A DNA stretch of 64,000 bases, taken from assembly GCF_040807025.1 (NCBI RefSeq), contig NC_090952.1, positions 1,674,001 through 1,738,000 on the forward strand, written 5' to 3'. This DNA comes from Struthio camelus (Eukaryota > Chordata > Aves > Struthioniformes > Struthionidae). The position numbers and the translations under genes were made by a program. The notes under the pieces are model-generated. The model had not been told where the DNA came from. It searched no databases and saw only the letters and a program-made list of their open reading frames with translations. Positions 9,914 through 64,000 of this stretch are shown here, one piece after another; the stretch's first letter is position 1; the number at the start of each line of letters is the position of its first letter.

Positions 9914-10079
9914 GCGCCGGGGGTGGGGTATGGAGGTCCTCAGGCGCTCGGGCTGTGTGTGGCGGCCGCGGTGTCCCCTCGGTGTGTCCCATCCGCGCCC
10001 GCCGCCCGGAGCCCCCCTCTGTGCCTCGCGGGGTGGGCAGAGGAGCCGGGGTCACCCCTGCAGGGGTCGCTCCCCCGCA

Positions 10080-12986: not shown

Positions 12987-13973
12987 TCAGTCCTGGAGCC
13001 GCAAGCAGGACACGGTGGGGAGGGACTTAGTGCTTCTGCTGGGGAAACCGGAGCCATTCCCCAGGCGAAGGAGGACTCTCCTCTTCACACTGGCAGCCAG
13101 CTGGGAGAGCTGCAGCCGCACGTCCTTCTGCCAGTAGGAGTAGAGCAGGGGATTCAGGAGGGAATTACCCAGTCCCAGCAGCCAGAGGTAGTTCTCAATG
13201 ACTTTGTAGGGGAAGCACTCCAGGCACATGGTCTGCACGATGCTGGCGATAAAGAACGGCAACCAGGACAGCGTGAAGCACCCAGTGAGCACAGCCACAG
13301 TGCGCATGGCTTTCATGTCATTAGTGGCGCGGGATGGGGGGCAGCTCCCTGCCAGCCCTGCGTGCTCCACCTCCCGAATGTGCTGCACATGCATGGCTGC
13401 AATTTTCAGCATGTCGCAGTAGAGGTATATGAAAAGAAAGAGTTCTGGGAAGAAGCCGATGCAAAAGACAGTGAGCATGTATCTTGGCTGGAAGACTCCG
13501 AAGAAGGAGCACTTGTCAATGGTGGAGGTGGAGGTCTGCTGAAGGCTTGGGGCGAGGACTGGGAGGAAGCCAATGATGGCAGCAAGCAGCCAGAGTCCCA
13601 CCAAGCGCACTCCAACCCGCAGGCCCGTCATCAGCCGGAAGTAATGGAAAGGCTGCCTGATGGCCAAGTGCCTGTCAAAGGCCACCAGCGTCAGGGACAG
13701 GATGGAGGCAGCAGAGGAGGAAGTCACGAAAGCCATTCTCAGAACACAGAAGGTCTGGGTGGGATAAAAGGGCGGGGAAAACTCATCCATGACCAGACCC
13801 ACAACTGTGAAGCCTACCATGGAGTCTGCGACAGCCAGGTTAAGGACAAAGTAGAGCCCATTGCAGCTGCTCTTCTGGATGAGACGAAGGAGGGCAACGG
13901 CCACCAGTGCGTTGGCAGTGATGATGAGCGAGGCCAGCACAGCAAGGATGAGTCCGAAGGCTGAGGTGGCCAT
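12987..13973 (-). CDS. GPR119: GPR119, lipid-amide-sensing class A GPCR
   Basis: Single-exon gene of 328 codons (human about 335). The protein is a class A receptor with seven hydrophobic helices. TM1 lies about residues 6-28, TM2 40-62 with the conserved D50, TM3 76-98, TM4 118-140, TM5 162-186, TM6 222-246 and TM7 262-285 with NPLLY at 274-278. C76 and C155 form the expected TM3-ECL2 disulfide pair. The stretches FVTSSSAAS, CDMLKIAAMH and LLGLGNSLLNPLLYSYWQK closely match mammalian GPR119. In mammals the receptor binds oleoylethanolamide and lysophospholipids, couples to Gs, and promotes incretin and insulin release. The usual DRY at the TM3 end reads DRH (100-102) here. The start at 13973 is chosen because MATSAFGLILAVLAS aligns with the human start MESSFSFGVILAVLAS. 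It lies on the same strand as SLC25A14, 5.4 kb downstream of it. Confidence 0.96.
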   Translation of the reverse strand: MATSAFGLILAVLASLIITANALVAVALLRLIQKSSCNGLYFVLNLAVADSMVGFTVVGLVMDEFSPPFYPTQTFCVLRMAFVTSSSAASILSLTLVAFDRHLAIRQPFHYFRLMTGLRVGVRLVGLWLLAAIIGFLPVLAPSLQQTSTSTIDKCSFFGVFQPRYMLTVFCIGFFPELFLFIYLYCDMLKIAAMHVQHIREVEHAGLAGSCPPSRATNDMKAMRTVAVLTGCFTLSWLPFFIASIVQTMCLECFPYKVIENYLWLLGLGNSLLNPLLYSYWQKDVRLQLSQLAASVKRRVLLRLGNGSGFPSRSTKSLPTVSCLRLQD

Positions 13974-22300: not shown

Positions 22301-25300
22301 TCTCTGGGCTGTCGGAACAACACCCTGTAGAGCACAAACATCACTCACGAGTGCAAACCACTGCCTGGGGACCTGCAGCTAGCATAGCATCTCTCCCCAG
22401 GTCCCTCTCAAGGGCCTTTTGCTGACAATCTCCTTTGCATCCTCCTGGCCCTGTATTGCTCCTGCAAGCTTCTCAGTTACAGCAGCTCACCATCTCCCCA
22501 CTTTACTGCAAAGCTAAAGAGGACTCCTCCACCCTGGCAGTGTTAATCCACCTAGATTAACCATATGGTGCTACTCTCCCCCCAGCCAACAGCATACAGA
22601 AATCAGGCTTCAATCCACTAGTCTTCCCCTTCTGAACAGTACCCACTGATTTCAGCACCAGAGAAGATTAACCCAAGAGCAAAGGCAGCAGCTACCTAGG
22701 GAGCCACCTGGGGCTCCAGGTCACCCTTGCTCCACAAGAGCAGCCAGATTCTGCTTTGCTAAGGCTTGTGATTTGGGAGTTCTTCATGTACCGCTAGCGT
22801 TGCTGCTGGCAGGACATTGACCTGGGATTTGGCAATACAGCTGAGAAGAACAAGCATGAGCTCAAGTAAGAAGAGCCAGCTATGCTGTGTCCAAGAAATG
22901 TCCCAGCAAACTCCACCATCAGGAATGAGATAAAAAGGGTGCAAATTTAATTGGGCAGCAGGACAAGAAGAACACAGTAGCAATGCCAAGTTGGACCCAT
23001 GGCACAGCAACTGTAGCACCATCTGAGTAATTCAGGGAAACCCACATTGTAATGGGAGAGTTCTCCAGTCACTGGAATTAGGAGCAACTCTTCATTTCAG
23101 CCAGATCATGAGACAGCCCACCAGGACTGTCTCATCACACAAAACCAAAGCAACTGTAAGAACTAAAACTACTTTCTTCCTGTTCCCATCCTGCTGAGCT
23201 ACTGCAGCATCCGACAGTCTCCTTTTGGGTTCCTCTCTTAACGCAATCCTGGCACAGCCAGTTCAAACATCAGGTCATCCCCACAAGATAACTGCCCAAA
23301 CTGGCAAGATGTCAGGATAGCACAAACAGCTTTGCCTCAACATGAGGGAAAACTGGACTTCAGAGATGCTCTACCTAATGGTTGTGCGAGACCAGAGAGC
23401 AGCCAGATTAGCTTGATCACTGGAAACCACCTTGAGACTGACATGTCTGTGCACTGCATCCTGCCTGCAGTACACATCAGCAACACAGATGGTTGCATTT
23501 TTTTTTCCTGTTCTCGCCTTCCCTCTTGCATGACTTTGTCTAGAGAGTAGGAATAATCTCAGAGTAACCACTAAGTCAAAACCAGCAGTGGATTGACCCC
23601 TTCTCCTCCTTCCCTCCTCTTCCCATCCAGTTTATTGCAACACCTGTTTTCCTGTAAAGGACTTCCCTGACCATGAGAGAGAAATAGGACTGTTGCTTGT
23701 AGAAAAGCACTCTGATTTTGGAATTCCTGTACTTGAACTCACTCTTAGACAGGTAGCTGGGTACCTCAGTGCATAAAGACTTTCATATTGCAAGGACCAA
23801 GTGAGGTTCCTTAACACAAAGCCAAAGAACTGACTGACTCCCAAGATATGCCAGGCTGAGCATCCTTCCCAGAGCAGAGCACAAGGAGGATCCAGCCCAG
23901 GAATGCTTGTCCAAGCCCTAATGCTGATCTGTTCAAGGGATACTTATCTATTTGAAACTTTAGGCACACCAGCTTCCGTCCTGGGAAACAGGCTTGCCTG
24001 GCCAAGCACTGGTGTTGCTGCAGCACAGACCTAAGCACACGTTTCACACACATGTTTCTGTTCGGCCAGCGACCAGAACCAGAAATTTGTTACTACCATT
24101 GGGCCACCGTACTCTGCAAATCCAGCACCAGGGCCCAGAGACACGAGATGAGGAGCAGCAAACAAGTTGAGGAAGCTGTTCATTCTGCTACTAGAGAGAA
24201 GGTTTCCAGCAACTCACCCTCCAGAGGCCTCGGGTACCCTCCTGCTGGTAGATATCGATGAAGCTGCCAATCATGCCACCCTGGAATAAACTGCCTTGAG
24301 CCTGCATTCGAATCTGCAACAGAAGTGAGAGTCAGCGGGATGCCATCGGGGCCTCACCAAGAGGACAAAGTTACCAGCTCAGTGGACCTCCTGGTAGAAG
24401 GGAGCATCTCAGAGCAAACAGGCTACCCACGTGCCCTTTCACTGGAAACCGAGTGTCAGGTGATTACAGCAGGCAAGGAGCAGGGGCTGTGGCAGGGTGG
24501 AAGTGCAGTGCAAAACTCAGATAATGCAGAGAAGCAACAGGCAAGACCTTTCCACTCTGAAGGCAGTCCCAGAAGGCAGATGTACACAGGGAAAAGCGTA
24601 GGAAAGTTCTCCAAACTCCCTCTGCTCAAAGCAGAGTTTTCTTGACCCCAGTGGCCCAGCGGTAGGGAACGCAGGGGATCCAGCAGTTCCCACTGAACTC
24701 TGGTCACTCCATGTAACAGGTAGGACTGACCTTTATCAGCCAAACTAAGCACAGTGGCTGCAGGGAAAGGAGCTGAGGTCTGCTGAATGCCTAGCTACCA
24801 CATCGTTCACTTTACTCATTTTTAAGATAACACAACCTCCATACCTCCTCACCATAAACGGTTTCCTGATCTTTAAGAGCTGCATTTTTTTAAAATGCTT
24901 CCTGCTCTGGACTTCTGCTGTCATTCATAAGAAGCCCAAATTAACAGAACTAATACAGCAGCGGCTCGGAGAGCATTTCACTGCAGCTGGAAGAGACACA
25001 CCTTCATTGGAAAGCAGCAGCTTCAACATGGCAAAACATAGCTGGCAGAGAGCTGTCTCTGGCCACATAAATGTCTTACCTTCAGCACATCTGTTGGATT
25101 GGCAAGTGCAGAGGAGATCACCCCTGAAACCACTCCACAGATCACATTGATGAGCAACGTTTCATCTGCAATCAAGAAGAGAAGGTCAGATCCTAAAGAT
25201 CTTAAGAGAAGATGCAGAGACCATACTGAACAAGCAAGAAGCTCCAGGAAGAATAGAAAAGTTCAGCTCCCAAATCACATGGTGAAGTTGCATGAGCAGA

Positions 25301-27562
25301 GACTGACCAACTACCTTCAGCTGTTGGCAGATCTAACCCCATACCTGCCTCAGCTGCCAGAGGCTTCTGGCAGCAGCAGCTGAAACACTCAGCAACATAC
25401 TTTCAGAGAGAAGCAGATCTGACCGATGAGTCTAGCTGATTGGGCAAGGAAAAGATTGCTATAGAGGAAAATTTTCAACAGTTACCTGGGATTTCAGTGT
25501 TCCCTGATTGTGGTGGAGACAGGCCAAGATAGAGGGAGAACAGAGAGGGACAACTAAATGCTTCTTGAGGTAACCTAACACCACAAAGTTTTGTTCTGGA
25601 GCCCCAGCTGGCTGCACTCAGAATATGCAGCCACCTTGAGAAAACAGAGAGCAGGAGACCCAGGCAAAAATTAGAAAGTTAGATGCAATTAGTTCCAGGT
25701 GGGAAGGAGGGAGGAGTCTCCAAGACTTCCAGGCCCGGTATTAGAGGGATGGTTATGTTGGAAAAAGGCATGGCCCTTGGCTGGTACTGACCACAGCACT
25801 TCCCAGAGGAGACCAGGCCACTGGCTGCCCCAGGCCTGTAGGGAGACAAACATTCAGACAACAGTACTCACAACTGGAAATGCAGCAGCAGCAAGCCGGG
25901 AAGAGATGTGCAGCCCAGTGTACGAACCACAGAACCAAGCGCAGAGAGAGATGTTACTCAAAAAGTAGAGCAACCCCAGGAAAAAGCCTTACTGTGCTGT
26001 ACTGGTCCTCTCACTGGCCTGCTGAACGGCCCGAGCCTCCCTCATATCCCTTTCCCAGGCCGTAACATCACTACAACATTCACTCGTGTCAGAGCAAGGG
26101 ATTAAACCTTATCTGTGCATCCAGTGCTCGGTGGTTCCTTCAGTGAAGACATATCAGACTCCTAGCGTCCTGCTATCTAGATAGGAGTGACAGAGGCTCT
26201 CATTACCAGAGGCATACAGGTCAAGAGTGTTCACAGTATCCTATCCTATGGGGCTGGAGCAAAACCGAAAGAGTTGTACACTATAATTTCTATGCAAACC
26301 AGAGGTGCTGCGAGGGTATCAAGGACTCAAAGGCTCCAGCAGAGATCTGGCAAAGCTCTGCCACTGAAGCTTTCAATCCAAGTAACACAGGGAAGTCCAG
26401 GGAATACAACTGGGACACGTTGTTTTTCCCGAGGCTAATCGGCAAGAAGAGATGAGCCTGAGCTGACAATAGCTTTTTTGGCTCCGATATTGCAAAATAC
26501 AAATAAAGGCTGGTGAAAGGAAAGATTGGTTTAGAAGGGGAGGGCTTGCCTAGGGGTTGTTTCTGCACCTGTGGATAGTGCCAAGCACAGCAAGATCCTC
26601 TGTCGAAACCTATCCCCGCTATTATTACACAAACAAAAAGGCATAGTGGGAAGCGGAAAAAACGCTCCATTTCTTGGGGAATCTGTGCCTGGGAAGGGCA
26701 AAGAAGGGAATGAGCAAAAACATACAGAATGGAGAGCACAAGGTTTCACGGTGCCCCTCCTGTGCGATGTGTCCATGCTGACACATTTACTAACACTGAC
26801 CTTCCAAGCGATCTACAAACAGCCGCTTCAAACTCTGGTAAATGCCAATCTTTATGGTGCCGTAAGATGCCTGTCTCAGCAACGCAGGGGCAATCCTGAG
26901 TGGGTGAACAAATGAAATCCAGTTGAACCCTGCCACCCTGGTGGCCTCCCTTGCAGGTCCAGCACAAGTCGCTCCCCATCAGCCACCAAACCGCAAGAGG
27001 CAGAGCTCGCGCCACTTGTGCCACCGTAACAGCTCAAGCACCCCCAAGAAGCACGGCTCTCGCTCTCTCAGGCGTCCAGGACCGCAAGCTCCGCTTCCCC
27101 AGCAACCTTTCAGCCGGCCCCGGCGCACACAGCCGGCCCCCAGGCAGCCCTCAGCCTCACCATGCAGATCCTTGCACCCTGCCCCAGGGAAGCCCCCAGC
27201 CCCCGCAGGCGCCCCGGCCCCTCCAGCCTGCTACACCCGCCGGGAAGGGCGGGCGGGCGGGGGCCGGGCCCAGCGCTTACCCCGAGTAGAGGGCGCGGCC
27301 ACCCTCCTCGCGGCAGATGCGGAACAGCGCGTGGAACATGCCGCGGTACCGCACCTCGCGGAACCGCGCATCGGCGCTCTGGCCCTGCACCTGCAGGCGC
27401 GTCTTGGTGAGGTCCACGGGGAAGGTGCCTGCGGGGAGAGAGGCCGTCAGCACCGGGCGGGCCCCGCGCCGCCGCCGCCGCCCGCGCCGCCGCCTCACCG
27501 AACTCGGCCACGATGGAGGCAAGCCCGCCGTACACGAAGGGTTTCCAGCTCAGCGCGGACAT
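19335..27562 (-). CDS. SLC25A14: SLC25A14 (UCP5/BMCP1), mitochondrial carrier, nine coding exons
   Basis: Inner-mitochondrial-membrane carrier of the SLC25 family. Coding exons in transcript order: 27562-27499, 27428-27281, 26895-26801, 25165-25080, 24313-24218, 22324-22200, 21058-20923, 20297-20217, 19376-19335. All junctions are GT-AG and phases join exactly, giving 290 residues. The three carrier signatures are visible: PVDLTKTR near residue 25, PTDVLKIR and PVDVVRTR, so the tripartite six-helix fold is complete. Residues such as [15 protein letters not shown] and [12 protein letters not shown] fit SLC25A14 better than its paralogue SLC25A30, and the location agrees. The protein starts at MSALSWKPF, like the shorter mammalian form. 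The frame stays open upstream of this ATG inside the CpG island (to about 27757), so an N-terminal extension cannot be excluded. The transported substrate in vivo is unsettled; the mammalian protein is called an uncoupling-like anion carrier. The introns (1-3 kb) hold no other gene, only a CR1 fragment near 21.65 kb. Confidence 0.96.
21622..21740 (-). mobile_element. CR1 LINE 3'-end fragment in SLC25A14 intron
   Basis: The stretch around GGAAGGTCTCTAACCCAACC, followed by CTGCTCAGAGCAAGG, matches the 3' UTR end of CR1 read on the minus strand. Similar wording occurs at 43.86 kb in the clearer copy. Similarity fades after about 21740, so length and age are uncertain. Confidence 0.6.
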
Positions 27563-27800
27563 GGCATGACGGAGCGGGCGCCGGCAGCGCGGCGCACCAA
27601 GCCGGGACAGCTGCCTCGGCGCGGCGCGCCCCGCCCCCGCCCCGCCGGAACCGGAACCGGAACCGCTCGCGCAGCCACCGCCCCCCCGTGACGCGCGGCT
27701 CGGCCGCCCGCGCTTCGTCTCCGCCCGCTGCGTTGGAGCAGCGCGGCCGGCGGGCAACCCGGCACCGCCTCTGCGCGCTCAGCGGGCACCGGCTTTTCCA
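27100..27800 (-). promoter_or_regulatory. CpG-island promoter of SLC25A14
   Basis: Dense CpG sequence surrounds the first coding exon (27499-27562) and most of exon 2 and intron 1. No TATA box is visible, as expected for a housekeeping CpG promoter. A repeated GGAACC motif lies at about 27645-27665, upstream of the start codon. Confidence 0.75.
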
Positions 27801-28528
27801 CGAGGCGGGTGGCACTTCTTTCCCAGCTCTATCTGGAAACCCGACCTGTAACCGCCTTCCCACTGCTCAGCCAGGGGGAAGCTGTAGCTCGGGGCAGCAG
27901 CCGCTGCACTTCACCCAGCAGCGGATTCAATACTGCTTCACTTTCAAGATCTTCAAAGCAAGCTTAAATGCAGCAAGTCAAGAATGGCATTCTTACAATT
28001 AAACTAGATAATTGTACGCCTAGGTAAGCATCCCAGGCACTCAAGGTAAAGTGACACAACAGGTTATCTCCTCCCCCCCCCATTGCCAATTCCAGAGGTT
28101 TGGATAGCAGTCTGCCCCTTGATTCCACCCCCCCAATCCCCTTCCCCCCCCCAACCCCCATTGAAGTTCTCCATTTTCAGCCTTCATGCTTCAGTCTTGT
28201 CCAGCATCTTCCAGTCAAGGGCTCTAGCAAGCTTGGTGGGTGAAGCACTTATCTTGCCCTTGAGGCATTACAGCTAGATGACCATTTGAAACCATATTTC
28301 CTCTCTATGGGAATTTTGAGACATATTTTCATATAGCAAGGTGCCTGTAGCAACCAGGTATGGCTAAAAAACATCCATTCCTATGTTGCCATATATCCCC
28401 AAATTTGATATCAATTACCTTTGGTCTTCAGGTCCAGTCAGCCTGAACACAGTATAAGAAGTAAAAGTATACCTTTATCAGTTACCAGGACAGTTCTCAC
28501 AGTTCTATTTTTCAGTTAATAGATCAAC
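27800..28528. other. short intergenic gap between RBMX2 3' end and SLC25A14 promoter
   Basis: Less than 1 kb separates the RBMX2 poly(A) signal from the SLC25A14 CpG island. The gap contains C-rich runs (about 28072-28082 and 28126-28158) and no coding sequence. The two genes are transcribed in the same direction. Confidence 0.6.
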
Positions 28529-28534
28529 TTTATT
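28529..28534 (-). terminator. poly(A) signal of RBMX2 (AATAAA)
   Basis: Canonical AATAAA on the minus strand, about 600 nt after the RBMX2 stop codon. This implies a 3' UTR of roughly 620 nt. Confidence 0.65.
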
Positions 28535-28710
28535 AAGGGACATTTAAAAAACAATAAATAGCCCTGATTCAACAGTGCATCCCTTGGGATTCATCACAGA
28601 AGCTGGCAGATACACAGGATGGGCTCAGGAGACAAACCCAGCATGTGTAAGGCCTACAAGATTCCCACCAGTTTCTCACTGCAGCGAGAAATGAGAAAGT
28701 GAGTGTAACT

Positions 28711-28728
28711 GGGGGGGGGGGAGGGGGG
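28711..28728 (-). repeat. C-rich tract in RBMX2 3' UTR
   Basis: The plus strand shows two G runs split by one A, so the RBMX2 messenger would carry a C-rich tract here. It resembles a poly(C)-binding protein site, but no function is shown. Confidence 0.45.
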
Positions 28729-29130
28729 CCAAGGGGAATGGAAAACAGTCTCGCCCAGACTGCTGACACTGGGCAGCTTAGGGAACAAACAATAGCAGCC
28801 CTGTGATCTGTTTTCATGGTGCAGTGAAGTGGCTCGACACATCTACATGCCTGCCAGGCCATCCACCATTAATGCTGCAAGATGCCACAGCACAGAAGGG
28901 CTGAACAAGATGACAACAAAATTCACATCTCAGTCTGCAGCAGAAACAAGGAGATCCTTGTCCGAGAGCTGGAAGAGAAACAAAGCTAAGAACTAGTGGA
29001 GACTAGCAGTCTGCTGGTGGCGTCCTCACAGATGCATCAGGAGGCTTTGCGTAGACTTTGGGCTAGGTTCAGGGAACACATGCCTCTTGGTCGGAGGAGC
29101 CATAGCCCCAGGTACTGCTCACCCAACAGC

Positions 29131-32100
29131 TTAGCGGCGGCTGGAATCCCTCGTGGTACTTGGCTCTCTGTGCCTGGAATGGGGCTCTCGGGCACTGCTC
29201 TCCCGACGGTCCCTGGATCTGGTTCCCTCGAGACACTCTTCTCGTCTGCTGCTGTGACCTTCACCCTTTCTGCCAGTCTCCCCTCTCTCTTTCCTGTTTT
29301 GTCCCCTCTGTTCCTGGCAGCTTTTTTCCCCTCTTCTCTCCGAAGCTCTCTGGTGCCTCTGCTCTTCCTCATCCCGCTGCGTCCTGCTCCCATATTTCCT
29401 CTCAGACCCGTTCCAAGACTGCTGACTCACGCTGGCATACCGGTCATAGGCAGGATCCTCTTTCTCCTTTTTAATCTTGATTCTTGGATGTGACTCCTCT
29501 GCGGACGCAGCCCTCTTCACAGCATGCAGGCTCTGCTTTTGCCGTTCTTGCCCGCTTTTCTCTTTATCTGAAATACAGGTTCATCTTTAGGGAGCAATAG
29601 CCCTGCAAGCATTAGCTCAGCTCCTCAAGCTATGCCACTTAACACGACAGCGTTTTTTGAACACCCTCCCATCTTTAGATAAGGTCAATGATTTTCCCCT
29701 CCCCTCCCAAGTTTCACAGCCTCCTAACGGCCCAGAGAGATCCTATTCCACTTTCAGCCCTAGCACTTTTCTCCTCCAGATGGAACCATCCCACTTTCTT
29801 CTTTCACAATTGCCACATTGCATTTTTCCCAGCTAAGCTGTCCTGGCACATTTTAACATGGCTCAGCCCATCAACCACTTTCCTTCAATTCTCTTTTCTC
29901 AATAACAGACATGCAACACTAAGAACGTCCTTAACAACTCTGTGGAAATGTCCTTCTCTGGACTCAATGCTTCTTTTCCTTCTTCACTCTCCTTTGCCTT
30001 TCTCATTTTTGCACATCTCCTCAGCTCTCTGGAGCAACATCTAGTCCCCACCTTAGTTTTCTTCCATATTTTCTTTTCTCCAGCCCACTTCTTGCAAACT
30101 AGGACTCTAGCCTGACCATCCCATGCCAAGGCACCCACCCCACATCCACATCAATGCAACACTACTGAACCTGCTGCAAATAGCTAACAGGGAGCCTGTC
30201 ACAGATACTGCCCAGGTGCTGGAGGGAAGAGTCCTCCACATGGCTGGTTACATGTCATAAGCACTAGCCAATTCCAGAATGACTACCACCTCCCCACCCA
30301 CCCCAACACCACCATGCCAAACCAGCTCATCCTGGGAGCTGTGACCCCATTTCAGTTAGGTACCACTCGGAAGGAGCTAACAAACAAATCTAAAGAGGTT
30401 CTGCTACAAGCCACTGCTTCTAGCACTCTGCAGGCCTTGATGTGCATTACTTTTCAAGACCTCTGCTACGAGGTTGGATAAAAACCATAATGCTTTCTAA
30501 AAAAAGCATCAATCTGATCATATAGGCTAACCCTTTACTTGGCACATTCATTTAGTAAACCCAAGCTGAACAAAACTATTTCCTTAACAAAAACAGATGT
30601 TTTCTGAAAGATATACAGCAGCAGACCTTGTTGTGTCCCCTGACAATAGGGAATATTTAAGCATTGAATTGGTTTAACTTATGCTATATTTTTAAGTCTA
30701 CCTTGGATTGAGATTTTTATGTCCAGAAACCAAAGCCAACTAAGTCTGCTCTTTTTATTCTCTACACAATTTAATTATGTTTTGCAGGCCACACAAGGGT
30801 CATGCAATGCTCCTGCAGCACCTCAATCTTAAAATCAGGAAGCAGCTATTCTAAGACTAAGTAGTGCCTTTCCTTTCCCTACCCCAAACAGCATTGCCGC
30901 TCCCTGGAGTAATGCTACAGCCTGGCAGCCAGTTTCTTTCTTCCAGGAAAAAAGTACTATTATTACCTGCAAGATACAGCTCTGAGAGGATGGGAGTAAA
31001 AGACTAAATACAGACAATCAGATACCACTCAGGAGATCACAAATTACAACCTGGACTTTAGGACTGAGGCCCTTTTCAAGCACACATCTGCCCCTCCTTC
31101 TCCCACTGATGCTGTTTCCCTGAGCTGAAGGCACTAGCAAGACAGAGGGATTCATGCAGACATTCCCAACTGGGGTAAGGACTCTGACAGAAATACACTT
31201 AACCTTTCTGCTTTTTTACTGGCACGTTATCATCTTCTGACAACGAATCAGATGAAGTATGAGGTGGCGTTTTAACTCCACAGCCCTTTTCACGGAGGGC
31301 TTTGGTGACATCATCTAAATCATCAGTGTCTTTGGGGGGGCGATAGCTAGCCACATGGTCCACTCGAATTGTCCTTCCTTTTATCTACAAGAAGGAGTCA
31401 CATCGTTAGCACAGCCACAGGCAAGCTTCCCAAGCAACACGGGATACCAGTGACCCACACTGCTGGGGCTGCTGTTTGACACGACATGACATGTCATACC
31501 ACAAGCCTCTTTAGCTAGAAGGACTGTGTCTCGCTCTGCTTCACTGACCTTGATTCCATTAAAGTTGTCAACAGCCAGAATAGTGCTTCTCTGGTCTTCA
31601 TAACAAAGAAAGCAGAAGCCTTTAGACTTTCCAGTCTTCTTGTCCCGCACCAGATTAATGTTCACAACCTCTCCATACCTGAAACGCATGATTAGCGGCC
31701 AAAACCACTGCGGAGAACGCACAGAGGGCCTCGGGGCCTGCAGGAGGGCAGGCAGCAGAGGCAGAGCACCTCCCATTCCGCAGGGTCCCAGCGTACCTCC
31801 ACCACAAGCAGGCCCTGAAGGGTAGCAAAGGCAGCGCCACTTACTGTGAGAACACGCAGATGACGTCCCCTTCGGTCAGCTCGTAGGGCAGCCCGCCTGT
31901 GGAGGAGAGGCGTGCGGCGGCGGCGGCACGGAGCACGGCAGCCGCCGGGAGGGGCCGCGCCCCGGGCGCTGTCGGAACCCCTCCCGCCTGAAGGGGGCGC
32001 GCGCGCGCGCGGCAGGCCCCGCGCCCCCCGAGCCGGGCGGCGGCGCCCCGCGCCCCCCCTAGCCGTGCCGTGCCGTGCCGTGCCGTGGCCGCACGTACCG

Positions 32101-32318
32101 ACGAAGACCCAGGCGCTGTCCTTGTACTCGGCGTGCCACGACACCGCCTCCTGCACGCCCAGCTCCGCCTCCCGCGCGTTCAGCTCGTTGATCAGCTTCA
32201 CCTTCGTCAGTGGGCTGGGGGCGACGGGCACCATTAGCACCGAGGGAAGGGGGTCTTCTTTCCCCGCCTCCCGCCCCCCCCCGGCACTCCCCACGCGCTC
32301 CCCGCAAACCTACTTCAT
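29131..32318 (-). CDS. RBMX2: RBMX2, RRM splicing factor of the RES complex, six coding exons
   Basis: Orthologue of yeast Ist3/Snu17. With BUD13 and SNIP1 it forms the RES (retention and splicing) complex on activated spliceosomes in the nucleus. Coding exons in order: 32318-32314 (only ATGAA), 32214-32099, 31896-31845, 31678-31549, 31384-31204, 29567-29131. All junctions are GT-AG with exact phase, giving 306 residues (human about 322). The N-terminus [14 protein letters not shown] matches human. A single RRM spans about 36-114, with RNP2 VFVGGL (38-43) and RNP1 KGFCFLCY (77-84). The DSDSLSEDD-like acidic region and KKQK basic patch follow, then a long low-complexity Arg/Glu/Ser-rich tail encoded by the last exon, ending SSRR. 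The tail is the least conserved part, and its charged repeats read open in several frames. The first coding exon carries only five coding bases, so the ATG is defined mainly by the human match. Confidence 0.95.
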
Positions 32319-32430
32319 GGTGACAGCGCCGTACGCTGCGCCTGCGCCCCGGCCTCCGCGCATGCGCGTCGCGCAGCCGTGCACAGCCCCGCCCCCTGCC
32401 CGCCGCGCATGCGCCGCGCGAAGCACCACC
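31850..32430 (-). promoter_or_regulatory. CpG-island promoter of RBMX2
   Basis: CpG-dense sequence spans exons 1-3 and the region just upstream of the start codon at 32318. It begins immediately next to the RAB33A poly(A) signal (32449-32454). The promoter must therefore lie within about 130 bp of the upstream gene's cleavage site. Confidence 0.7.
32062..32086. repeat. (GCCGT)5 microsatellite in RBMX2 intron 2
   Basis: Five perfect 5-bp units, starting just inside the intron after the donor of the second coding exon. It is probably length-variable. Confidence 0.85.
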
Positions 32431-32448
32431 AATTGCAGCCACACAGAC

Positions 32449-32454
32449 TTTATT
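32449..32454 (-). terminator. poly(A) signal of RAB33A (AATAAA)
   Basis: Canonical AATAAA on the minus strand, about 62 nt after the RAB33A stop codon. The 3' UTR would be only about 80-90 nt. The next gene's start codon (RBMX2, 32318) lies about 130 bp further. Confidence 0.75.
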
Positions 32455-32515
32455 GGGTAACAGTGACACAGGGCGGCGGCGGCGGCCCCGCTCCCGGCCC
32501 TCTGGGCCGGCTCGC

Positions 32516-35397
32516 TCAGCACGGGCAGGAGTTTTTACCGTTGGCGTCCTGCGTGAGCTCCAGTTTCTGCACCTTGCCCTGCTGCCTTTCCATGTCTCGG
32601 TAGAGCAGCGACTTCTGGGCCTTCAGCCGGCAGGCCAGGCACATGAAAATGGATTCCACGTTCTGGCTCTCCTTAGGGTCCTTGGCTGAGGTCTCAAACA
32701 GCAGCATGTTGTGAGCGTCAGCGAATTTCAGGGCCATGCTGGATGGCACTTGGATCAGTTCCTTTAAGTCACACTTGTTCCCAACAAGCACCTTGGGCAC
32801 GAGGGGAGGCACCGCGTGCCCGTTGCACTCCTCAATCCACATCTTGAGGTTGGTGAAGGACGTCATCTTAGTGACGTCGTAGACGAAGACGACGGCATGA
32901 ACGTTGCGGTAGTAATGTTCTACCATGCTCTTCCGAAACCTCTCCTGGCCAGCCGTGTCCCACACTTGCACCTAGAAAGCAAAGCATAGGGTTCTTGAGG
33001 CAGACGAGGGAAGCTTACGGGAGCACCAAGTGCCTACCCCTAAAACCAGGGCATGCTGCCTCAGGAGCTGGTTGGTTTTGATGAACTACAGCGGGAAGAT
33101 GCAGGAGACACCTACATCTTACTAGACAAGGATTGCTAGATGAGTTACATAAGCGTCTGGGCATGTGTCCACAGCGCCCAAGACTGTATATGGCAGTGCC
33201 TATGCCCCAAAGCTTGTGTAATTCAACCAGCAATCCCAGCTCGTTTAATAAGAGAGATCATGTCAGCACTTTCATTCACCTTCAGCATTCACGGACAAGT
33301 GCGAGACTCCACCGCGCATCCCATTTCCAGCCACTGCAGCTGAGTCCAGCACAGTCAAGAGAATTAGCCGCACGCTTTTGGTCCTTGTGCTCTGAGCGAG
33401 AAACGTCGCTGCCTGATGGCTGGGTCTTGGTGACTTTCAAACGCCTTGTCAGGCATCCCTCCTAGAGCACTCCGCTGCCAGACCACTCCCTGCCTCTCAT
33501 CCTCTTCCTCATGCACTTGACCAGCATTCCCACCACAGAAACGAACTGCACAAAATACTTCTCATTTCAGAAACATTCTTGCACCAGATTAGGACATTGG
33601 TCTGCCTAATCCTATGCCATAAAAGAGAACCTCAACAATTACACAGTGGTAGGTATAGAGGAGGCAGAGCAAAGAGACTGGTCTCCCTGCTGGTCCTCAC
33701 AGGTAATGCCGTGAAGCCTGGAACTGGTCATTTCTAACAAAAGCCTGTGGTAAACCCAACACCACCCCTACACCTTACCAAGGCAGCACCTGCCCCAGAG
33801 TCCTTCAGAGGGGAAAAATGCTGGCAAAAAAGAGCTGCTGCTCATTCACCAATTCCATGCCAATCCATCCCAGGCCGTTTGATTTGGGTAGAGCAGGAGA
33901 GAGAGATGGATGTCTCCCACCTCTCACCTCTCCTCTTGGACTTCCCGGTTACACATGCTCCCAGGGGAAGGCCAGGTTGCTGTCCTACCCTCCAATCCTG
34001 CCTGCTGTAGCGCAAATAATATCAAAAGGTAGCAAGCTTGGCACTGTTCTCAAGCTAGCGGCAGTAAGAAGGGCTTCATGCCAGCCTGTGCTACAGCTTA
34101 CAACAACACATATATGTGGTGTTGGATGGAGCTGGGGAAAGCATGGGGGAAATTAATAACTCTTCTTAAAAAAAAAAAAAAAGTATTTCATGGACAGTTT
34201 AAAGGCACAATTAAAATTCCAGTTCTAGTTCTCACTGTGATTAGTCCCTCAACTTTTGATCATCCATCTGTTAGCAAAGTAGCAATATTTGTTTCTTCAA
34301 GCAGTCTGTCTTACACCCAGACTGCTGGTGGTACTGATCCACGTAATCGGGCAGGCCAAGATCAGCTGCAAACTGTGCTTCTCAAGTTGTTTCTTAGCAG
34401 CTGCTGTTGAGCTGCAGATCTACTCTGACACATCGATCAGAGCTCTTCAGGTCTGAGCTAATTAATTTCTTACAGTTGTTACACTGGTCTACACACAGCA
34501 AATCAGTTCTATTCTAGGTCAGCGAAAATCACATCCTTGTAGTGCTTGCTAACACCAGCCTGGAACAGTAACATCACAGGTGTCAAGCCCACTGAAGTCA
34601 GCCAGTGTAAATTCCCGGCCCCCCAGCACAGCCACCACCAGCCTCCAGCAGTCTGCTCCCCGAAAGCATACACATTTCTGCATACAGCTCCTTCCTCTGG
34701 CGCCCCTGGAGCGTTGCCCCTCGCGCTGTCCTGTGGTCCGCCTCCTGGAGCTGGAGGCACTCCTGACACTTTGGAGATCCATCTGTGTTGGATATCGGAA
34801 CAACAGGACACTAGCAATGTTTCACTCCGCGCTATTGTTCCAGACTCCCTGCAGACTCCAGCAAACAGCGTTTGAACAGCGCCGGTGGAGCCGCGACACG
34901 TTCGGAGGGTGTCTGCAGGGCGAGAACGAAACATCCTCCCGCGGCCCGGGGCTGAGGGCTGCATCTGGAAGGGAGAGGCGGCTGGCTGCCGTCCCAGGGG
35001 CCAACGTGCGGCCTCGCCGCGGCCGGGGTCGCCCCTCGGCGCTGCGGCGCCCGCTGCGCGCCGCCCGCACCCCCGCGGCCCCGGCCGCCTCGCCACGGCC
35101 CGCGCGGAGCGGCCGCCCCCGGCCCGCCCCCGCCGCCGCCGCCGCCGCCGAGCCGGCCGCGCGCCCGCCGCCCACCTTGATGCGCTCCCCCTCGATCTCC
35201 ACCGTTTTCTCTCGGAAGTCCACGCCGATGGTGGCCTCGGTCTTCTCGGGGAAGGTGCCCCCGCAGAAGCGGAAGGTCAGGCAGGTCTTGCCCACGTTGG
35301 AGTCCCCGATCACGATGATCTTGAAGATACGTGTCTGCACGTAGGGCTCCAGTGAGGACTCGGGGCCCGGCGGCCGCCCGCCGCCGCCCGCCGCCAT
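32516..35397 (-). CDS. RAB33A: RAB33A, Golgi/vesicle small GTPase, two coding exons
   Basis: Rab GTPase of 225 residues (human 237). In mammals it acts on Golgi-derived and dense-core or axonal vesicles and binds ATG16L1. Exon 1 is 35397-35176 and exon 2 is 32971-32516, joined in phase 0 across a 2.2 kb GT-AG intron. The P-loop GDSNVGKT lies at 31-38, switch I around TIGVDF, DTAGQE at 78-83, NKCD at 139-142, and ETSAK near 167-171. The C-terminus NSCPC ends in the CXC geranylgeranylation motif. The N-terminal leader, [15 protein letters not shown], is shorter and more Gly/Pro-rich than the human leader, and [15 protein letters not shown] then aligns closely. The ATG at 35397 is chosen because the upstream in-frame extension begins with GTG and the next ATG upstream (35415) is out of frame and stops at once. 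Confidence 0.96.
32972..35175 (-). other. RAB33A: RAB33A intron
   Basis: Single 2.2 kb intron with a GTGGGC donor at 35175 and a TTTCTAG acceptor at 32972. The first 300 bp belong to the CpG island. The rest is ordinary sequence with a short poly(A) run near 34.17 kb. No other gene was seen. Confidence 0.8.
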
Positions 35398-35569: not shown

Positions 35570-36235
35570 CCCCGGCCCCGGCCCCGGCTCCAACCCCAGC
35601 CCGCCCGCGCACCCGCCCCGGCTCCAACCCCAGCCCGCAAACGGGCACCCGCACCAGCCCGCCCTGCAAACGGGCACCCGCACCAGCCCACCCCGCCATC
35701 GGGCACCCGCACCCGCACCAGCCCGCAAACGGGCACCCACACCAGCACCCGCACCAGCCCACCCCGCCATCGGGCACCCGCACCAGCCCGCCCGCGCACC
35801 CACCCCGGCACCAGCCCACCCCGCCATCGGGCACCCGCCCCGGCCCCAGCCCGCAAACGGGCACCCGCACCAGCACCCGCACCAGCCCACCCCGCCATCG
35901 GGCACCCGCACCAGCACCAGCCCACCTCGCCATCGGGCACCCGCCCCGGCCCCAGCCCGCAAACGGGCACCCGCACCAGCACCCACACCAGCCCACCCCG
36001 CCATCGGGCACCCGCACCAGCCCGCCCGCGCACCCGCCCCAGCACCAGCCCACCCCACCATCGGGCACCCGCCCCGGCACCACCCCACCATCGGGCACCC
36101 GCCCCGGCACCACCCCGCCATCGGGCACCCGCACCAGCACCAGCCCGCCCTGCCATCGGGCACCCGCCCTGGCACCAGCCCACAAACAGGCACCTGCACC
36201 AGCACCCACACCAGCCCGCCCAGCGCACCTGCACC
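35570..36235. repeat. GC-rich minisatellite upstream of RAB33A
   Basis: Imperfect tandem array of roughly 24-36 bp units. The units are built from a core like CATCGGGCACCCGCACCAG or CGCAAACGGGCACCCGCAC, joined by CAGCCCACCCCGC spacers. The array starts with CCGGCCCCGGCCCC blocks and loses CpGs towards its right end. The repetition keeps frames open on both strands (Pro/Ala/His-rich on one, Gly/Ala/Cys-rich on the other), which should not be taken for protein. Strong G-quadruplex and hairpin potential is expected. Confidence 0.9.
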
Positions 36236-36264
36236 ACCGGCTGTTTCCACCAACCCTTGCGCTG

Positions 36265-38015
36265 TGGAGACCTGGCTGTGTCACACCAGCATGGGCACAG
36301 AGGCATGGTCAGTGTCACACCTGTCAGGACACTGAGACACAGTGAGTGTCACCCCATCGTGGGCACAGAGGCATGGCTGGCATCACACCAACGTGAGCAC
36401 AGAAACAAACTGCTGTCACACCAATGCAGGCACAAAGACACAGCCAGTGTCACACCACCATGGGCACAGATACACGTTATGTCACACCAGCATGGGCACA
36501 GAGACATGGTTGGTGTAACACCTGTCAGGGCACAGAGACACAGCCGGTGTCATACTAACATAGGCATAGAGACACTGTTGGTGTCAAATATTGCTACAGA
36601 GACACAACCATTGTCCTACTTGTCAGGGCAGGGACACACAGCCAGTGTCACACCAAATTGAGCACAGAGACACAGCTGGTATCAAACCTGACAGGGCATG
36701 GAGACACACCAATACGGCCACAGAGGCTCAGCCAGTGTCACTCCAACAAGGGCAAAGAGATGCGGTCATTGCCACACCAATATAGGCACAGAGAGATGGC
36801 CAGTGTTGCACCTGTCAGGGCATAGAGACATAGCCAGTGTCACACCAACACAGACACAGAGACAATGTTGGTGTCACATGAATATCACCACAGAGACATG
36901 GCCATTGTCCCACCTGTCAGGGCATGAAGATACAGCTGGTGTCACAACAATATGGGCACAGAGAAGCAGTCAGTGTCACACCAATGTGTCTCCAGGTCGT
37001 GAAAGATGTGACACCGACTGAGTCTCTGTGCCTGTGTTGGTGTGACACCAGCTGTATCTCTGTGCTCATGCTGGTATGACCCCAGCCAAGTCTCTGTGCC
37101 CATTTTGTTGTGACAATGGCTGTGTCATGGTGCTGATGTTGGTGTGACATTGGCTGTGTCTCTGGGCCAATATGTTTGTAATATTGGCCATATCTTTGTG
37201 CATGTGTTGCTGTGACAGCAGCTATGTCTCTGTGCCCATACTGGTGTGACAACAGCCTTGTCTCTGTTCCTTGACAGGCGTGGCACCGGCTGTCTCTCTG
37301 TGCCAATGTTGGTGTGACATCAGTTGTGTCCCTGTGCCCAAGTTAGTGTGACACAGGCTGTGTCTCTGTGCCTACATTGGTGTGACACCAGCCATGTCTC
37401 TGTGTCCCTGTTGGTGTGACACCGGCTCTGTATCTGTGCCCATATTGGCCAAGTCTCTGTGACGGAGTTGGTGTGACAGCAGCTGTGACCCCATGCCTCT
37501 GTTGTTGTGATACCAGCCATGTCTCTGTTCCCACTTTGTTGTGACACCAGCTGTGTCTCCATGTCCTGATAGGTGTTGCACCGACTGTGTCTCTGTGCAC
37601 ACGTTGGTGTGACACAGGTGGTGCCTCTGCACCCCGACAAGTGAAAAACAGCTGGTGTCATGCCACTATTGGCACAGAGACACAGCAAGTGTCTCATCAG
37701 CATGGGCATGCAAAGCCAGTGTCACTTCAAGTCAGGGCACAGCTACTCTCACACCAACATGGGCATAGAGGCACAGCTGGTGTAACACCAGCATGGGCAG
37801 AGAGCAACGGTCAGTGTGATACCTGTCAGGACATAGAGACATAGTTGGTGTCACAATAGTAGCGGAACAGAGACACAGCCATGTCCTACCAACATGGGCA
37901 CAGAGACACAGCTGGTGTCATACCAACGTAGGGCACAGAGACATGGCCAATGTCACACCTGTCAGGGCACGGAGACACAGCCAGTGTCACACCAACGTGG
38001 GCACAGAGTCACGGC
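36265..38015. repeat. 34-bp-unit minisatellite with two orientation switches
   Basis: Tandem array of about fifty units of near 34 bp. The plus consensus is close to TGTCACACCAACATGGGC followed by ACAGAGACACAGCCAG. From about 36265 to 37005 the units read forward. From about 37010 to 37625 they are reverse-complemented (GGTGTGACA and CTGTGTCTCTGTGCCC). From about 37640 to 38015 they are forward again. Two unit types alternate irregularly: one has CCAACATGGGCAC and the other has CCTGTCAGGGCAC. This hints at a higher-order structure. Unit length is not a multiple of three and no protein is encoded. Confidence 0.92.
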
Positions 38016-41086: not shown

Positions 41087-41092
41087 TTTATT
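41087..41092 (-). terminator. poly(A) signal of MARS2 (AATAAA)
   Basis: Canonical AATAAA on the minus strand, only 22 nt beyond the MARS2 stop codon (ending at 41115). This predicts a 3' UTR of about 40-50 nt. Confidence 0.7.
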
Positions 41093-41114: not shown

Positions 41115-44100
41115 CTAGAGCCTCTTGTTTTTCATCTGAGACTGTCTCGACTTCTCCAGTCTGTGAAATAAGATGCCAGTGTCAGGTCCAAGCTGTCTCC
41201 CTTCAAAGGGACAAGGCTTCCCATTGTAGCGTGGCAGAAACGTCAAACTTGAGAGACTTCTCTCCTCTGGCTCAACAGCCAGCCTGGAAAGCAACTTGTC
41301 TGCAATGTTTGGGATCACAGGCTGCAGGAGAATCCCATAGACCCGCAGGCATTCCAGCGTAACATGGATGATGGTGTCAAGCCAGAGCTTCTCCGCAGGG
41401 TCTTTCTGTTCCAGTTTCCAGGGTCTGTGTCTCTGGAAGAAGCCGTTGGTCTCCCTTACGCATAGGGCAATACATTCTAAAGCCTTGTAGATCTGGAAAC
41501 CTTCAAAATAACTGGTCACCCGCAGAGGTAAGGAAGCCACAGATGCCACCAGCTCATAGTCTTCAGCTGAAGCCTTACCCAAGGCTTGTGTCCTATCATA
41601 ATCTGAAATCTTCGGAAAACAAGACTCTGAGAAATAAGGGTAAGTGTTGCTAGGGTTAATGCTGAGGGCTGTTGAACGATTCAGAAGTCCCCCAAGCGCA
41701 TCTGCCAGTTCTGAATTCACTAGCTTAACAACCTTCTCATCATAATAGTCACAATCCCGCTCAGGCACGCCTTGCCTTAGCAGGAAGTACCGAAAACCAT
41801 CTACTGTATACTGTCCAAAACAAGAAACAGGGTCAATCACGTTGCCCAGGCTTTTGGACATCTTCTTCCCTTGGACAGTCCAGTGGGAATGCACGTAGAT
41901 CCGCTCAGGGGGGGCCAGCCCAGCTGCCATCAACAGGGCTGGCCAGTAGACAGCATGAAACTTGAGGATATCCTTGCCCACAACATGGTGTGCAGCAGGC
42001 CACCACTCACTGTGTGTCTCAGGGTAACCTACAACACTCAGATAGTTCACCAAGGCATCCACCCATACATAAATAGTTTGCGTTGAGTCACTGGGGACAG
42101 GGATACCCCACTGTAACCGGCTTCTCTCACGAGAGACGGACAAGTCTGGCAAGTCCTCTTCCAGCCAGTGGAGCACTTGCTGATAGAAAGGAACAGGGGA
42201 AATGACATGTGGGTTGTCCCGGAGCCACTTCTGCAGTGGCTCCTGGAATTCAGAGAGCCTGAACATGTAATTCTCCTCTTTGGTCCAGTGTACCTGAGAA
42301 CACAGGAGAGAAAAAAATTACAGCCCAGATGAACAATTTTATAGTTTGCACAAAGCACTTCTCCAATGGAGCTTGTCACATGCTGCATTTGCATTCGGGT
42401 GTGCTCCCCAACACACGTGGAGTCCCTGGTGTCTTTCTACGACTATCGGGAACCTCCTCTCCCCCCTGGGTTCCCAGGGGCAACATGTAAAGATTTACGG
42501 ACTCACAATGGCTCAGCGTTCTGGATCCTTGGGCCCCCAGGGCAGGAATACCTTTCTATATGCCAGACTCATCTGCCATCAGGCAAGAATTACAGAGACA
42601 AGAATACACTTCCTTAAAGACATGGCCTTGTAACAATGGTACAAAATATTAAAAAGACAAAATGACAACAGCCATTGTTAATTACTGGCTTACTAAAGAA
42701 CCTAGTGGGTGCCTTAGCTTCTCTCCTAGCTGCTGCCTCTCTCTTTTCCCCCAGTTTAAGCTTCAGTGCATCTTAGCTGCTAACCTTGATAGGCCATACT
42801 GCTAAAAACAGATTTACAGTCACGTAAAAGTACTGATAGTACTTCTTGACACTTTTAAGTTCATTAAGTGACACATCTAGCGAAACAATGAAAACTTTGC
42901 AGGTAGATAAGGTATGACTGACCTGTGTAAAGGCACTCCAGATCTATGACTAGAACAGGAATTCTTGTCTTTCAAAGTTAAGTAAGGCTCCAAAATAAGA
43001 AAGCAGAGGTTTGGGCATAATGCAGGGCAGAGTTTCAGTTTCTAGCACCGAACCCAACAACTTCTGACTGAGCCAGAAAGTGCATCACTCATTAAAAGCA
43101 ATAAAGAACCTACCACATCTCAAAGCAAGATGACCTAAGGAATAATTAGTCTCTGTGCTATGAGACCACACTTCATAGCATAGTTGAATTTGCCTTATTT
43201 CAGCTAATAGCTTTTACTGCCTTTGCTTGCCAAATTAAAAGGTCATCCCAAAAGAAATACCCTTCCCTACACAAAAGGCATCAAAATGTTTTTTTCCTAA
43301 GTTCTTTATAATTTTTCATAATCTTTCTGATTTCTGGATAACATAGCTCAGCACTCTGTCCAGAAGTAACACTGCATACAGAGGTGATGCCATGCCCTCT
43401 GTTGAATATTCCTTTTTTAAACAAGCCAGTGATCCTTTTGGTCATAACTCAGGACACAAGAGCCAACTTGGCAAACTGGGAACTGCAGTCCTTTCTTCCA
43501 AAAGGCTGACCAAGTCTGGTGCTTTGCTCTGAAGAACCCTTCCTCACATCACCTGCCAAGTGTTAAGAGCAGTTAGCCAACTGCAGAAAAGATGCGGCTG
43601 AAGAGCAGTAGAAAGCATTTCGGTGGGAAGAGGAGAAGAGTTTATAAATAGGCTATCTCCTGAGAACAGGTAAGTTAGAGACTGCAGTATACAGAGAGAC
43701 TGGGAAAGGGCAGGGTAATTATAACAACCTGTAAATCCAGTGTCTGTTTGAGGTTTGTCTGTGAACAGTTAGTGGAATATTCTCCCTGCAGGGAAATCTG
43801 TGTGTCATCCCTCTGGACCTTCAAACAGCCCTGATCTCAGGAGTATAGACTAATTCAGGTTGGAAGGCACTTTTGGAAGTCTCTAGTCCAACCTCTTGCT
43901 CAAAGCAAGGTCAGCTATAGGGTCAGATCAGGTTATTCCGGGCTTTATCCATCAGATCTTGAAAAGCTCCAAGGATAGAGACCACACAGCCTCCCTGGGC
44001 AGCCTGTTTGACTGCCTGGCTGTCCTCATGTGGAAACAGCTTCTCCTTAAATCCAGTCTGAATCTCTCTTTTTTCAACTTAAGCCCATTCTCTCTTGTCC

Positions 44101-47100
44101 TCCCGCCACGCACCACTGGAAGAACTTTGTTCCATTTTCTTTATGACCTCCTCACAGATATTGGGGAGCTTCTCTCATCAGGCCCTCCCAAAGCCCTATC
44201 TTCTCCAGGCTGAACAAGCCCAGCTCCCTCAGCCTCTCCTCACAGGGCAAGTGTTCCAGCCTCCTGACCATCTTTTTGGCCTCCCCAAACTTGTTCCAGT
44301 TTGTTTTCCCTGTCCTGGGGGACCCCAAACTCGATGCAACATCTAAATGTGGTCTAACAAGGGCTGAGTAGAGGGGGATTCCTATAGCCCAGGATAATCC
44401 TGTTGGCTGCCTTTGTTTCCAGGACACATTGCTGGTTCATGTTCAGCTTACTGTTTACCAAAACCTCCAGGGCCTTTTCAGCAGAGCTGTTCCCTGGCCA
44501 GTCAGTCCCCAGCTCCTCATCAGAAAGAGAATCACTGCAGCCCCACATGCACCAACTGTCTCTAGGCTGGACCTGAGCAATGAACAACACGCATAAATGC
44601 AGTTCCTCTCCTAGTAAATACAGGAGAGCACAGTTCCTGGTCCAGCATTAGGACTTCCCAAAAGAGGGCATCTTTTCACTGTATAGATAAATTAAAGTAC
44701 CACCATACACCAGAATGAACCTTTCACAGGCAGTCCATAGAACCAGAGCAGTGGGGGTGGGAAGGGCCCTCCATATTGCATACTCGCAGCAGGGCTGTTG
44801 CCAGCACCAGGCCAGAGTGGCTGGGGCTTATCCCATTAGAGGCAAGGAATCCCCAAAGATGGAGCCCCCCCACCTCTCTGGGGAGCAGTCCCAGGGCCAC
44901 GCCAGTATTCTGGAGCAGGAGCTTTTCCTAATGCCCAATCTGATGCCCACTGCACAGCTTGTGGCTTGACCCCTTCGCCTAGCACCTCTGAGAAGCATTG
45001 GGCTTTGTGGTCTTTGTAACTGCCTTGCAAGTAGTTGTAGGCTGCTATTAAATCATCCCTTCACCTCCTCTGCCAAATTCAACCAGCCCAGCTCCCTCTA
45101 CCTCTTGTAGGACTGGGCTCCCTACTCCCTGACCACCTTGGGAGCCCCCTGCTGGCCCCTCTCCAGCTTGTCTGCATGATAAATGACACACACACAAACA
45201 GGGTGAAGAGAGAGGGTAATTTCCTGCAAAACAGTCTCTGGTATCTCAGTGGGTTCAAGGAAGATCTGAAGAACATCATTCAAAGGTGAGCTACACATTT
45301 TCATCCCCAGGCTCTATCTGATAGCAAAAGTCTGAGACTCAGAGGTATCAGTTTTATGATATGTTGTATTCTCCCAATTTTGTCCACACATTCCTCAGGC
45401 AACAAATTACCTGTATCCTTCTTTCTGGTTGGAGATAAACACCTACCATCTCTTCCTCCCCCCCCCACCCCACCCTGTAAAATCTTCTCAATATCATAAA
45501 CACTGCCATTCCTCTTCGACAGCCTGACACGCAGCTAAGGCAGGTGATTGTTCGCAGTGTATGTTTGACTTTGAGGTCTACTGCCTCTAATTTAGACCAA
45601 AAAAAAATTGCCTAAGAACTCATCTTTTTCCCCAGCTACATTAGGTGCTCTATCAAGAGACAATATTTGCTCCTCCATATGTGAGCCAACACTCCTGTGC
45701 TCCAGTTTAGTACAAGTATCACAGGAGGAGAATAATCTCTGCTTAGCTCTGAAGCGTGACTATCTGCAACTGCTGGATTAAATCACTTAACTCCTAACTC
45801 ACTATAAAAAGATCTGCAGTGGCAGAGACTGCAGGTCAGGTACCACATACCTGGCTGCATTGCTGCACAATCACCAGACCAGGCTATAGACTGATGACAT
45901 TATAGTGTTTTACTTAAGGCCAACAACCATGCAACAGGATACGGCTGAGGTAAAGTGTCTGGTGGCCGAGCCAAATTGCCTCACAAACTAGATCTGAAAC
46001 TCTGCACACCTAAAAAATAGCTGAGTTATAAACAATTATCTTAACCCAAGGACCACCTTTTTCCTGCTCTGCAGCTAACTTTTCTCATCACTGCTTTAAA
46101 ACACTGTTTCTAGGCCAATGGCCTGTGAAATCCAGTGGCAGAGAGCCCTCTCTATGTGATATGGCTGCAGTTTCTGTTATTTGGTGTCTTTGGGATTCCT
46201 TTGGCAGCTCTCCCTTATATAAGAGGTAAACAGCTACAGAGAAGAGCCATGTTTTGAAGTACGGGCAAGCCTCAGCTGATGTGAATTACAAAGCCTATAG
46301 GAAACATTCAACACCCTCAAAACCCGCTAGGACAAAGTAACAGACAGGTACCCAGTGTACTTGGGATTGCCTAAACTTAACATGGAAAGTGCAGGTACTA
46401 TTACCTGATGGCCAGTCTCCAAAGACACCTTGCACATGCGTCCCTGGGCGTCCCTGTGGTCAACAAGCTGGCTCTCGGGCAGGAAGCACTCCTCCGAGGT
46501 GCAGTACCAGCCCTGATATGACCCTTTGTAGAGTGCCCCGCAGTCCCGGAGGGCAGCCCAGAAATGCTGCACGGCTCGCTGGTGGCGGGGCTCACTGGTG
46601 CGGATGAAGTCTGTGAAGGAGATGGCTGCCTGGGTCAAGGCCTGGCGGAACAGCCCCGACACCTGGGCACAAAGCTGCAGGGGTGACATCGCTGCTGCAG
46701 CCGCGGCCTGCTGGATCTTCAGCCCGTGCTCATCAGTCCCTGAAACGCCGAAGTGCCACAGCAGTCAGAGGGGAGGAGAGGCAGGGCCTGGCCTTCCCCT
46801 GCCCTGCTGGGGACACAGCCTGGGACCCGGGGGAGCTGCACAGCCCTGCAGGCGCGTGGAAAAGCCCCAGGGACACGGGGGACGGCGGGCAGCCGGGCAG
46901 GAGACCCGAGACATGGGCAGAGCACCCGGGGAGCCGGGGCAGCCACAGGGGATGAGCCCCGGGACACAGGGCAGCCCCCGAAGCCTGGGGGGGCCCCGGG
47001 GACGGGCACTGGCGAGAGCCACGGCCGAGCCCCGGGGAAGCCTCGGCGGGCGCGGCCCCGGCGCCGGGCTCAGCGCCTGGCAGGCCTCGCTCACCCGTGG

Positions 47101-47314
47101 AGAGGCGGCCCAGAGCGGCGCCGCGGAGGCGGCGATGGCGGTGCAGCGCGTCCGCCAGCAGGGCGGAGTAGAGGTGGCCGATATGCGGCGGCCCATTGGC
47201 GTAGAAGATGGGCGTGGAGAGCAGCACGCGGCGGCCCGACCCGCCGGACCCGGCGGCGGCGGCGGCGGCGGCAAGACGCATCCCCGGCGCGAGACGGCGC
47301 GGCGGCCGCAGCAT
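41115..47314 (-). CDS. MARS2: MARS2, mitochondrial methionyl-tRNA synthetase, three exons
   Basis: Class I aminoacyl-tRNA synthetase that charges mitochondrial tRNA-Met in the matrix. Exons: 47314-47095, 46739-46405, 42293-41115. Junctions are GT-AG and phases join exactly, giving 577 residues (human about 593). The Arg/Ala-rich N-terminus (about 1-30) is a plausible mitochondrial presequence. The HIGH motif is intact at 44-47 (PPHIGHLYS), and KMSKS at 329-333 ([10 protein letters not shown]). [14 protein letters not shown] spans the first junction and [14 protein letters not shown] opens exon 3. The C-terminal anticodon-binding helical domain is complete. The whole sequence aligns collinearly with human MARS2. 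Mammalian MARS2 is a single-exon gene at an unrelated locus, so the two introns and the position beside AIFM1 are the unusual features. Intron 2 (42294-46404) contains two CR1 copies and no other gene. Confidence 0.96.
43847..44590 (-). mobile_element. CR1 LINE, 5'-truncated, in MARS2 intron 2
   Basis: Minus-strand CR1 copy of about 740 bp. The 3' end lies near 43.85 kb (CAGGTTGGAAGGCACTTTTG, then TCCAACCTCTTGCTCAAAGC). The translated part shows [16 protein letters not shown] and [20 protein letters not shown], the CR1 ORF2 C-terminal signature. It is more decayed than the copy at the left edge and carries frame breaks, so it is older. Confidence 0.88.
44735..45180 (-). mobile_element. older CR1-like fragment in MARS2 intron 2
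   Basis: Phrases such as CAACCAGCCCAGCTCCCTCT near 45.08 kb and GACCACCTTGGGAGCCCCCT near 45.13 kb match the CR1 3' ORF/UTR region in the same orientation as the neighbouring copy. It is diverged and may be a second insertion or a displaced piece of another subfamily. The boundaries are approximate. Confidence 0.6.
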
Positions 47315-47491
47315 GGCGGCCAGACCATAGAGGCGAGCGGCGCAGAGCGGCCGCCTCGGAAGGCGGGGCGGGAAGGGGTGCGCCAGAGGAGGCCAATGGG
47401 AGCAAGGCGGCGGGCGCTGGCGCGTGCGCCGTGCGGGCGGCGGGGTCGAGCCGGGCCGGCCCGGGGCAAGCGGCGCGAGGTGACTGGCGAC

Positions 47492-64000
<16,509 letters not shown>

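Follow-up and report, generated by a model that had tools for sequence, protein, structure and literature searches.

The window, by which we mean the whole stretch of 64 kb of ostrich DNA that was analysed, carries MARS2 on the minus strand between AIFM1 and RAB33A. Exon structure, protein identity and neighbouring genes were read from the window itself. MARS2 is made up of three coding exons, all on the minus strand. Exon 1 (47095..47314, 220 bp) begins with the start codon at 47314-47312 and encodes the N-terminal leader and the HIGH motif. Exon 2 (46405..46739, 335 bp) follows, and exon 3 (41115..42293, 1179 bp including the stop codon at 41117-41115) contains the KMSKS motif. Between them lie intron 1 (46740..47094, 355 bp, GTGAGC...TTTCAG, phase 1), which splits the Gly codon of STG|TDEHG, and intron 2 (42294..46404, 4111 bp, GTAATA...TCTCAG, phase 0), placed at GHQ|VHW with a CAG|G junction context. 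Neither intron length is a multiple of three. Reading through from exon 2 into intron 2 leads to a stop at the 26th codon, while read-through from exon 1 into intron 1 is free of stops, yet the length of the intron shifts exon 2 out of frame. An AATAAA polyadenylation signal (41087..41092, minus strand) is found only 22 bases beyond the stop codon, which suggests a very short 3' UTR. Using tblastn with the MARS2 protein, a single copy was found in the whole 64-kb window. MARS2 is a complete and intact three-exon gene, with splicing as predicted from the DNA. The original prediction had described three exons with clean GT-AG junctions, an intact pair of HIGH and KMSKS motifs and a head-to-head position relative to AIFM1, and all three were borne out: both introns of the spliced model are GT-AG, both motifs are present in the translation, and 177 bp separate the start codons of the two genes, which lie on opposite strands.

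A repeat search between 41000 and 48000 gave 11 families of direct repeats with two short copies each. Furthermore, positions 44421-44488 in intron 2 share 76% identity over 68 bp with positions 524-591, which are part of a reverse-transcriptase fragment at 358-948 on the minus strand (Pfam RVT_1, 1e-9), presumably a CR1-like element. Together with the genes present, this element gives the window the look of bird DNA. Neither an Rfam scan at gathering thresholds nor a tRNA scan with bacterial settings gave a match.

The spliced product comprises 577 amino acids. Against Pfam it matched tRNA-synt_1g (3.1e-105) and Anticodon_3 (2.3e-06), and the predicted protein carries the catalytic domain of a class I methionyl-tRNA synthetase with HIGH and KMSKS. 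Compared by BLASTP with a human MARS2 sequence, 356 of 565 aligned positions were identical (63%, 747 bits), and the alignment to this protein, the sole reference against which the intron positions were set, is gap-free across both exon junctions. The cytoplasmic methionyl-tRNA synthetase chain 5gl7 reached 99 bits by phmmer, a score that is only roughly comparable to BLASTP bits. By these scores the deduced bird protein is nearer to human MARS2 than to the cytoplasmic enzyme. MARS2 is the nuclear-encoded enzyme that charges mitochondrial tRNA-Met, and the N-terminus of the ostrich product, a putative import leader, is rich in arginine. Searching genome contigs with exon 3 yielded one relative with 33% identity on a bacterial contig; a scan of viral contigs gave none.

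The start codons of MARS2 and AIFM1 enclose a spacer of 177 bp (47315..47491) with a G+C content of 0.80 and a CpG observed/expected ratio of 1.09. Within this very GC-rich DNA, consensus matches predict two GC boxes (47366 and 47435), a CCAAT box (47393) and an NRF1-like site, GCGCGTGCGC, at 47420. CpG observed/expected was at least 0.74 in all five 200-base steps of 47000-47999. Along MARS2 the ratio is 1.23 in exon 1 and drops to 0.47 and 0.31 in exons 2 and 3. The pair fits the geometry of a bidirectional promoter, with genes head to head, less than 1 kb apart and in a single CpG island, and due to this arrangement MARS2 and AIFM1 probably share one divergent promoter.

On the other side of the spacer, AIFM1 (47492..62643, plus strand) starts with a first exon at 47492-47582, and its pieces were traced up to 62643 with human AIFM1 as the query. 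For the exon near 62500-62643, a PDB search gave 21 AIFM1 sequences (5.6e-30 to 2e-29); the C-terminal part was looked for within the 64-kb window and was not found. Two candidates for the second exon were observed on the plus strand, at 49636-49698 and 51195-51271, reminiscent of the mutually exclusive exons 2a and 2b of mammalian AIFM1. The candidate at 51195-51271 is bordered by AG and GTAAGA, and its phase fits exon 1, though taken alone it reached just E = 1.9. The candidate at 49636-49698 is the better match (58%, E = 1e-4) with a GTAAGT donor, and none of the five AGs in the 60 bases upstream fits the phase. It may be decayed, or may be joined to another first exon.

Beyond MARS2, the next gene is RAB33A on the minus strand, with coding pieces at 35361-35173 and 32971-32519 that show 90% and 93% identity to the human protein; their closest PDB chains are Rab-33B. 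Two minisatellite fields lie upstream of it (35596-38012). One is a GC-rich array whose overlapping units measure about 29 to 234 bp (35596-36229); the other consists of arrays of a 34-bp unit whose consensus was found in both orientations (36278-38012). An RRM gene at 31384-31875 (RRM_1, 3.2e-10) reads as RBMX2. SLC25A14 runs from 27562 down to 20217 in eight pieces with 78 to 91% identity to its human counterpart. A 331-residue receptor of the rhodopsin family at 12990-13982 is presumably GPR119. In a GC-rich segment at 9227-10322 both strands carry long open frames; the segment is possibly the promoter and first exon of a neighbouring gene. A partial ENOX2 query gave no match in the whole window at E 0.01. 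In human, AIFM1, RAB33A, SLC25A14, GPR119 and RBMX2 are neighbours at Xq26, so that MARS2 of the ostrich occupies the slot between AIFM1 and RAB33A, which is without MARS2 in human. In the window the RBMX2-like gene is found between RAB33A and SLC25A14 (20217-35361). In human, RBMX2 is on the far side of GPR119, and the gene between RAB33A and SLC25A14 is ZNF280C; the difference perhaps reflects a local rearrangement.

The structure and location of the human gene and the linkage in chicken and lizard were taken from publications. Human MARS2 is described as "single exon" and "intronless" at 2q33.1 (PMC3308940), in agreement with what had been claimed for it. By this published statement it is without both bird introns. 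An intron of a noncoding transcript harbours the human gene, a CpG island covers much of its coding sequence, and the gene spans 3,528 bp with 593 codons (PMC3308940). From the latter two values about half of human MARS2 is untranslated, in contrast to the bird gene with its AATAAA shortly after the stop codon. The promoter setting of the human gene also seems to differ, as its CpG island extends over coding sequence, whereas the CpG ratio of the bird gene drops after exon 1. The loci differ as well, 2q33.1 in human (PMC3308940) versus the AIFM1-RAB33A interval here. In lacertids mars2 is specific to the Z chromosome and is named as an exception, its orthologues being on GGA4p and HSA2; this linkage is chromosome-wide, and the same Z also carries chicken-17 genes (PMC6534595). 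A "single exon" MARS2 amplicon of the chameleon (PMC4659627) was considered as a sign of an intronless lizard gene and rejected, since single-exon products are defined there by both primers lying within one predicted exon.

Considering all these data, we regard it as likely that the split MARS2 is ancestral and that the mammalian gene is a retrogene which replaced it. The lacertid Z-specific mars2, together with the position on chicken 4p versus human chromosome 2, indicates that the split gene is probably the older form (PMC6534595). The ancestral amniote would have possessed an intron-containing MARS2 that shared one CpG island with AIFM1 in a head-to-head arrangement. Later, on the way to mammals, its spliced mRNA would have been reverse-transcribed and inserted at the present-day 2q33, where the copy would have acquired a promoter. 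The parent between AIFM1 and RAB33A would then have disappeared, which would make human MARS2 an "orphan" retrogene. We infer the direction of the change, the mechanism of retroposition and the loss of the mammalian parent, and the direction was judged among amniotes only (bird, lizard, human). A relocation at the DNA level followed by later intron loss would leave the same picture as retroposition.

Was the move driven by the X? The original prediction had read it as X export, with a mitochondrial gene relocated to an autosome. This proposal is a special case of the retrogene origin, in which the retroposition was driven by selection against keeping such a gene on the therian X, and we consider it doubtful. 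The neighbours of the parent are X-linked in therians, and retrogenes leaving the X are an established pattern (PMC8793726); nevertheless, a published test speaks against such export as a general force, with no excess of mitochondrial genes moving off the X (PMC4350183). Between chicken and human, three mitochondrial genes left X-syntenic regions, one to HSA3 and two to HSA2, versus four expected, and between platypus and human none left the X versus two expected (PMC4350183). The two genes gone to HSA2 may well include MARS2. The platypus figure, which comes from only 575 orthologues placeable on large scaffolds and may not include MARS2, hints that MARS2 moved before the monotreme split, and so before the therian X (PMC4350183). 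Hence the move may be earlier than the origin of that chromosome. Of the inference made at the outset, the greater age of the split gene and a likely retrogene origin in mammals stood (lacertid Z, GGA4p versus HSA2; PMC6534595), whereas the X export found no support (PMC4350183).

Two further scenarios dispense with a mammalian retrogene. In one, MARS2 was ancestrally at a 2q33-like site, where the human gene has HSPD1, RFTN2 and BOLL as neighbours, and moved at the DNA level to AIFM1 in the sauropsid ancestor, while mammals separately lost the introns. The purely amniote evidence on direction leaves room for it, but it requires a relocation in one lineage plus a double intron loss in the other, and it is weaker because a single retroposition accounts for both differences of the human gene; we regard it as improbable. 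Two intron gains within one short gene are rare. An ancestrally intronless MARS2 with both introns gained in sauropsids or birds, a scenario for which one may invoke the junction context of intron 2 (usual for gained introns, and for old ones too) and the chameleon amplicon, of little weight as outlined above, is very improbable, since it demands two such gains, leaves the change of chromosome unexplained, and has to face a fly MARS2 orthologue with at least one intron (PMC3308940).

Retroposition in the mammalian lineage is the reading we favour. For the complete picture we are somewhat more reserved, though still inclined to accept it: an ancestral split MARS2 and AIFM1 on a bidirectional promoter, two mitochondrial genes co-regulated, a pair broken in mammals by retroposition, perhaps before there was an X, with AIFM1 left on its own and MARS2, now an orphan retrogene, placed under a new promoter. 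In human, MARS2 is mutated in the ataxia ARSAL. If the picture is true, a disease gene has passed wholly to a reverse-transcribed copy, and the promoter, UTRs and regulation of mammalian MARS2 differ from those of other vertebrates, which affects how far findings on its regulation in birds or fish apply to the human gene. MARS2 would also offer a datable case for asking if X linkage itself is what makes retrogenes leave that chromosome, and the AIFM1-RAB33A interval would be the precise place for a mammalian relic of MARS2.

Both the intronlessness of human MARS2 (PMC3308940) and the mismatch between GGA4p and HSA2 (PMC6534595) are already in print. The original prediction knew of no such description of MARS2, and this held for the combined reading: in the literature searched, no account was found which joins the two observations as an orphan retrogene. 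It did not hold for the observations themselves, which were published separately. In the passages of PMC3308940, PMC4659627, PMC4700957 and PMC6534595 the origin of human MARS2 is undiscussed. We are aware of the fact that MARS2 may already be among the 25 human "orphan" retrogenes of Ciomborowska et al. 2013, obtained by a comparison of worm, chicken and human genes (described in PMC5408686). MARS2 would resemble these genes as a retrogene that replaces a lost parent (PMC5408686) and differs from them in that its direction of change is read within amniotes alone. Bird and human MARS2 belong to the same protein family and have the same catalytic motifs, but the human gene is one exon at 2q33.1, and the bird gene has three coding exons beside AIFM1. 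The therian out-of-X retrogenes are similar in that the parental locus belongs to a block that later became part of the therian X and the copy is autosomal. Typical out-of-X retrogenes retain their parent on the X, whereas the parent of MARS2 is presumably lost and its move may precede the X.
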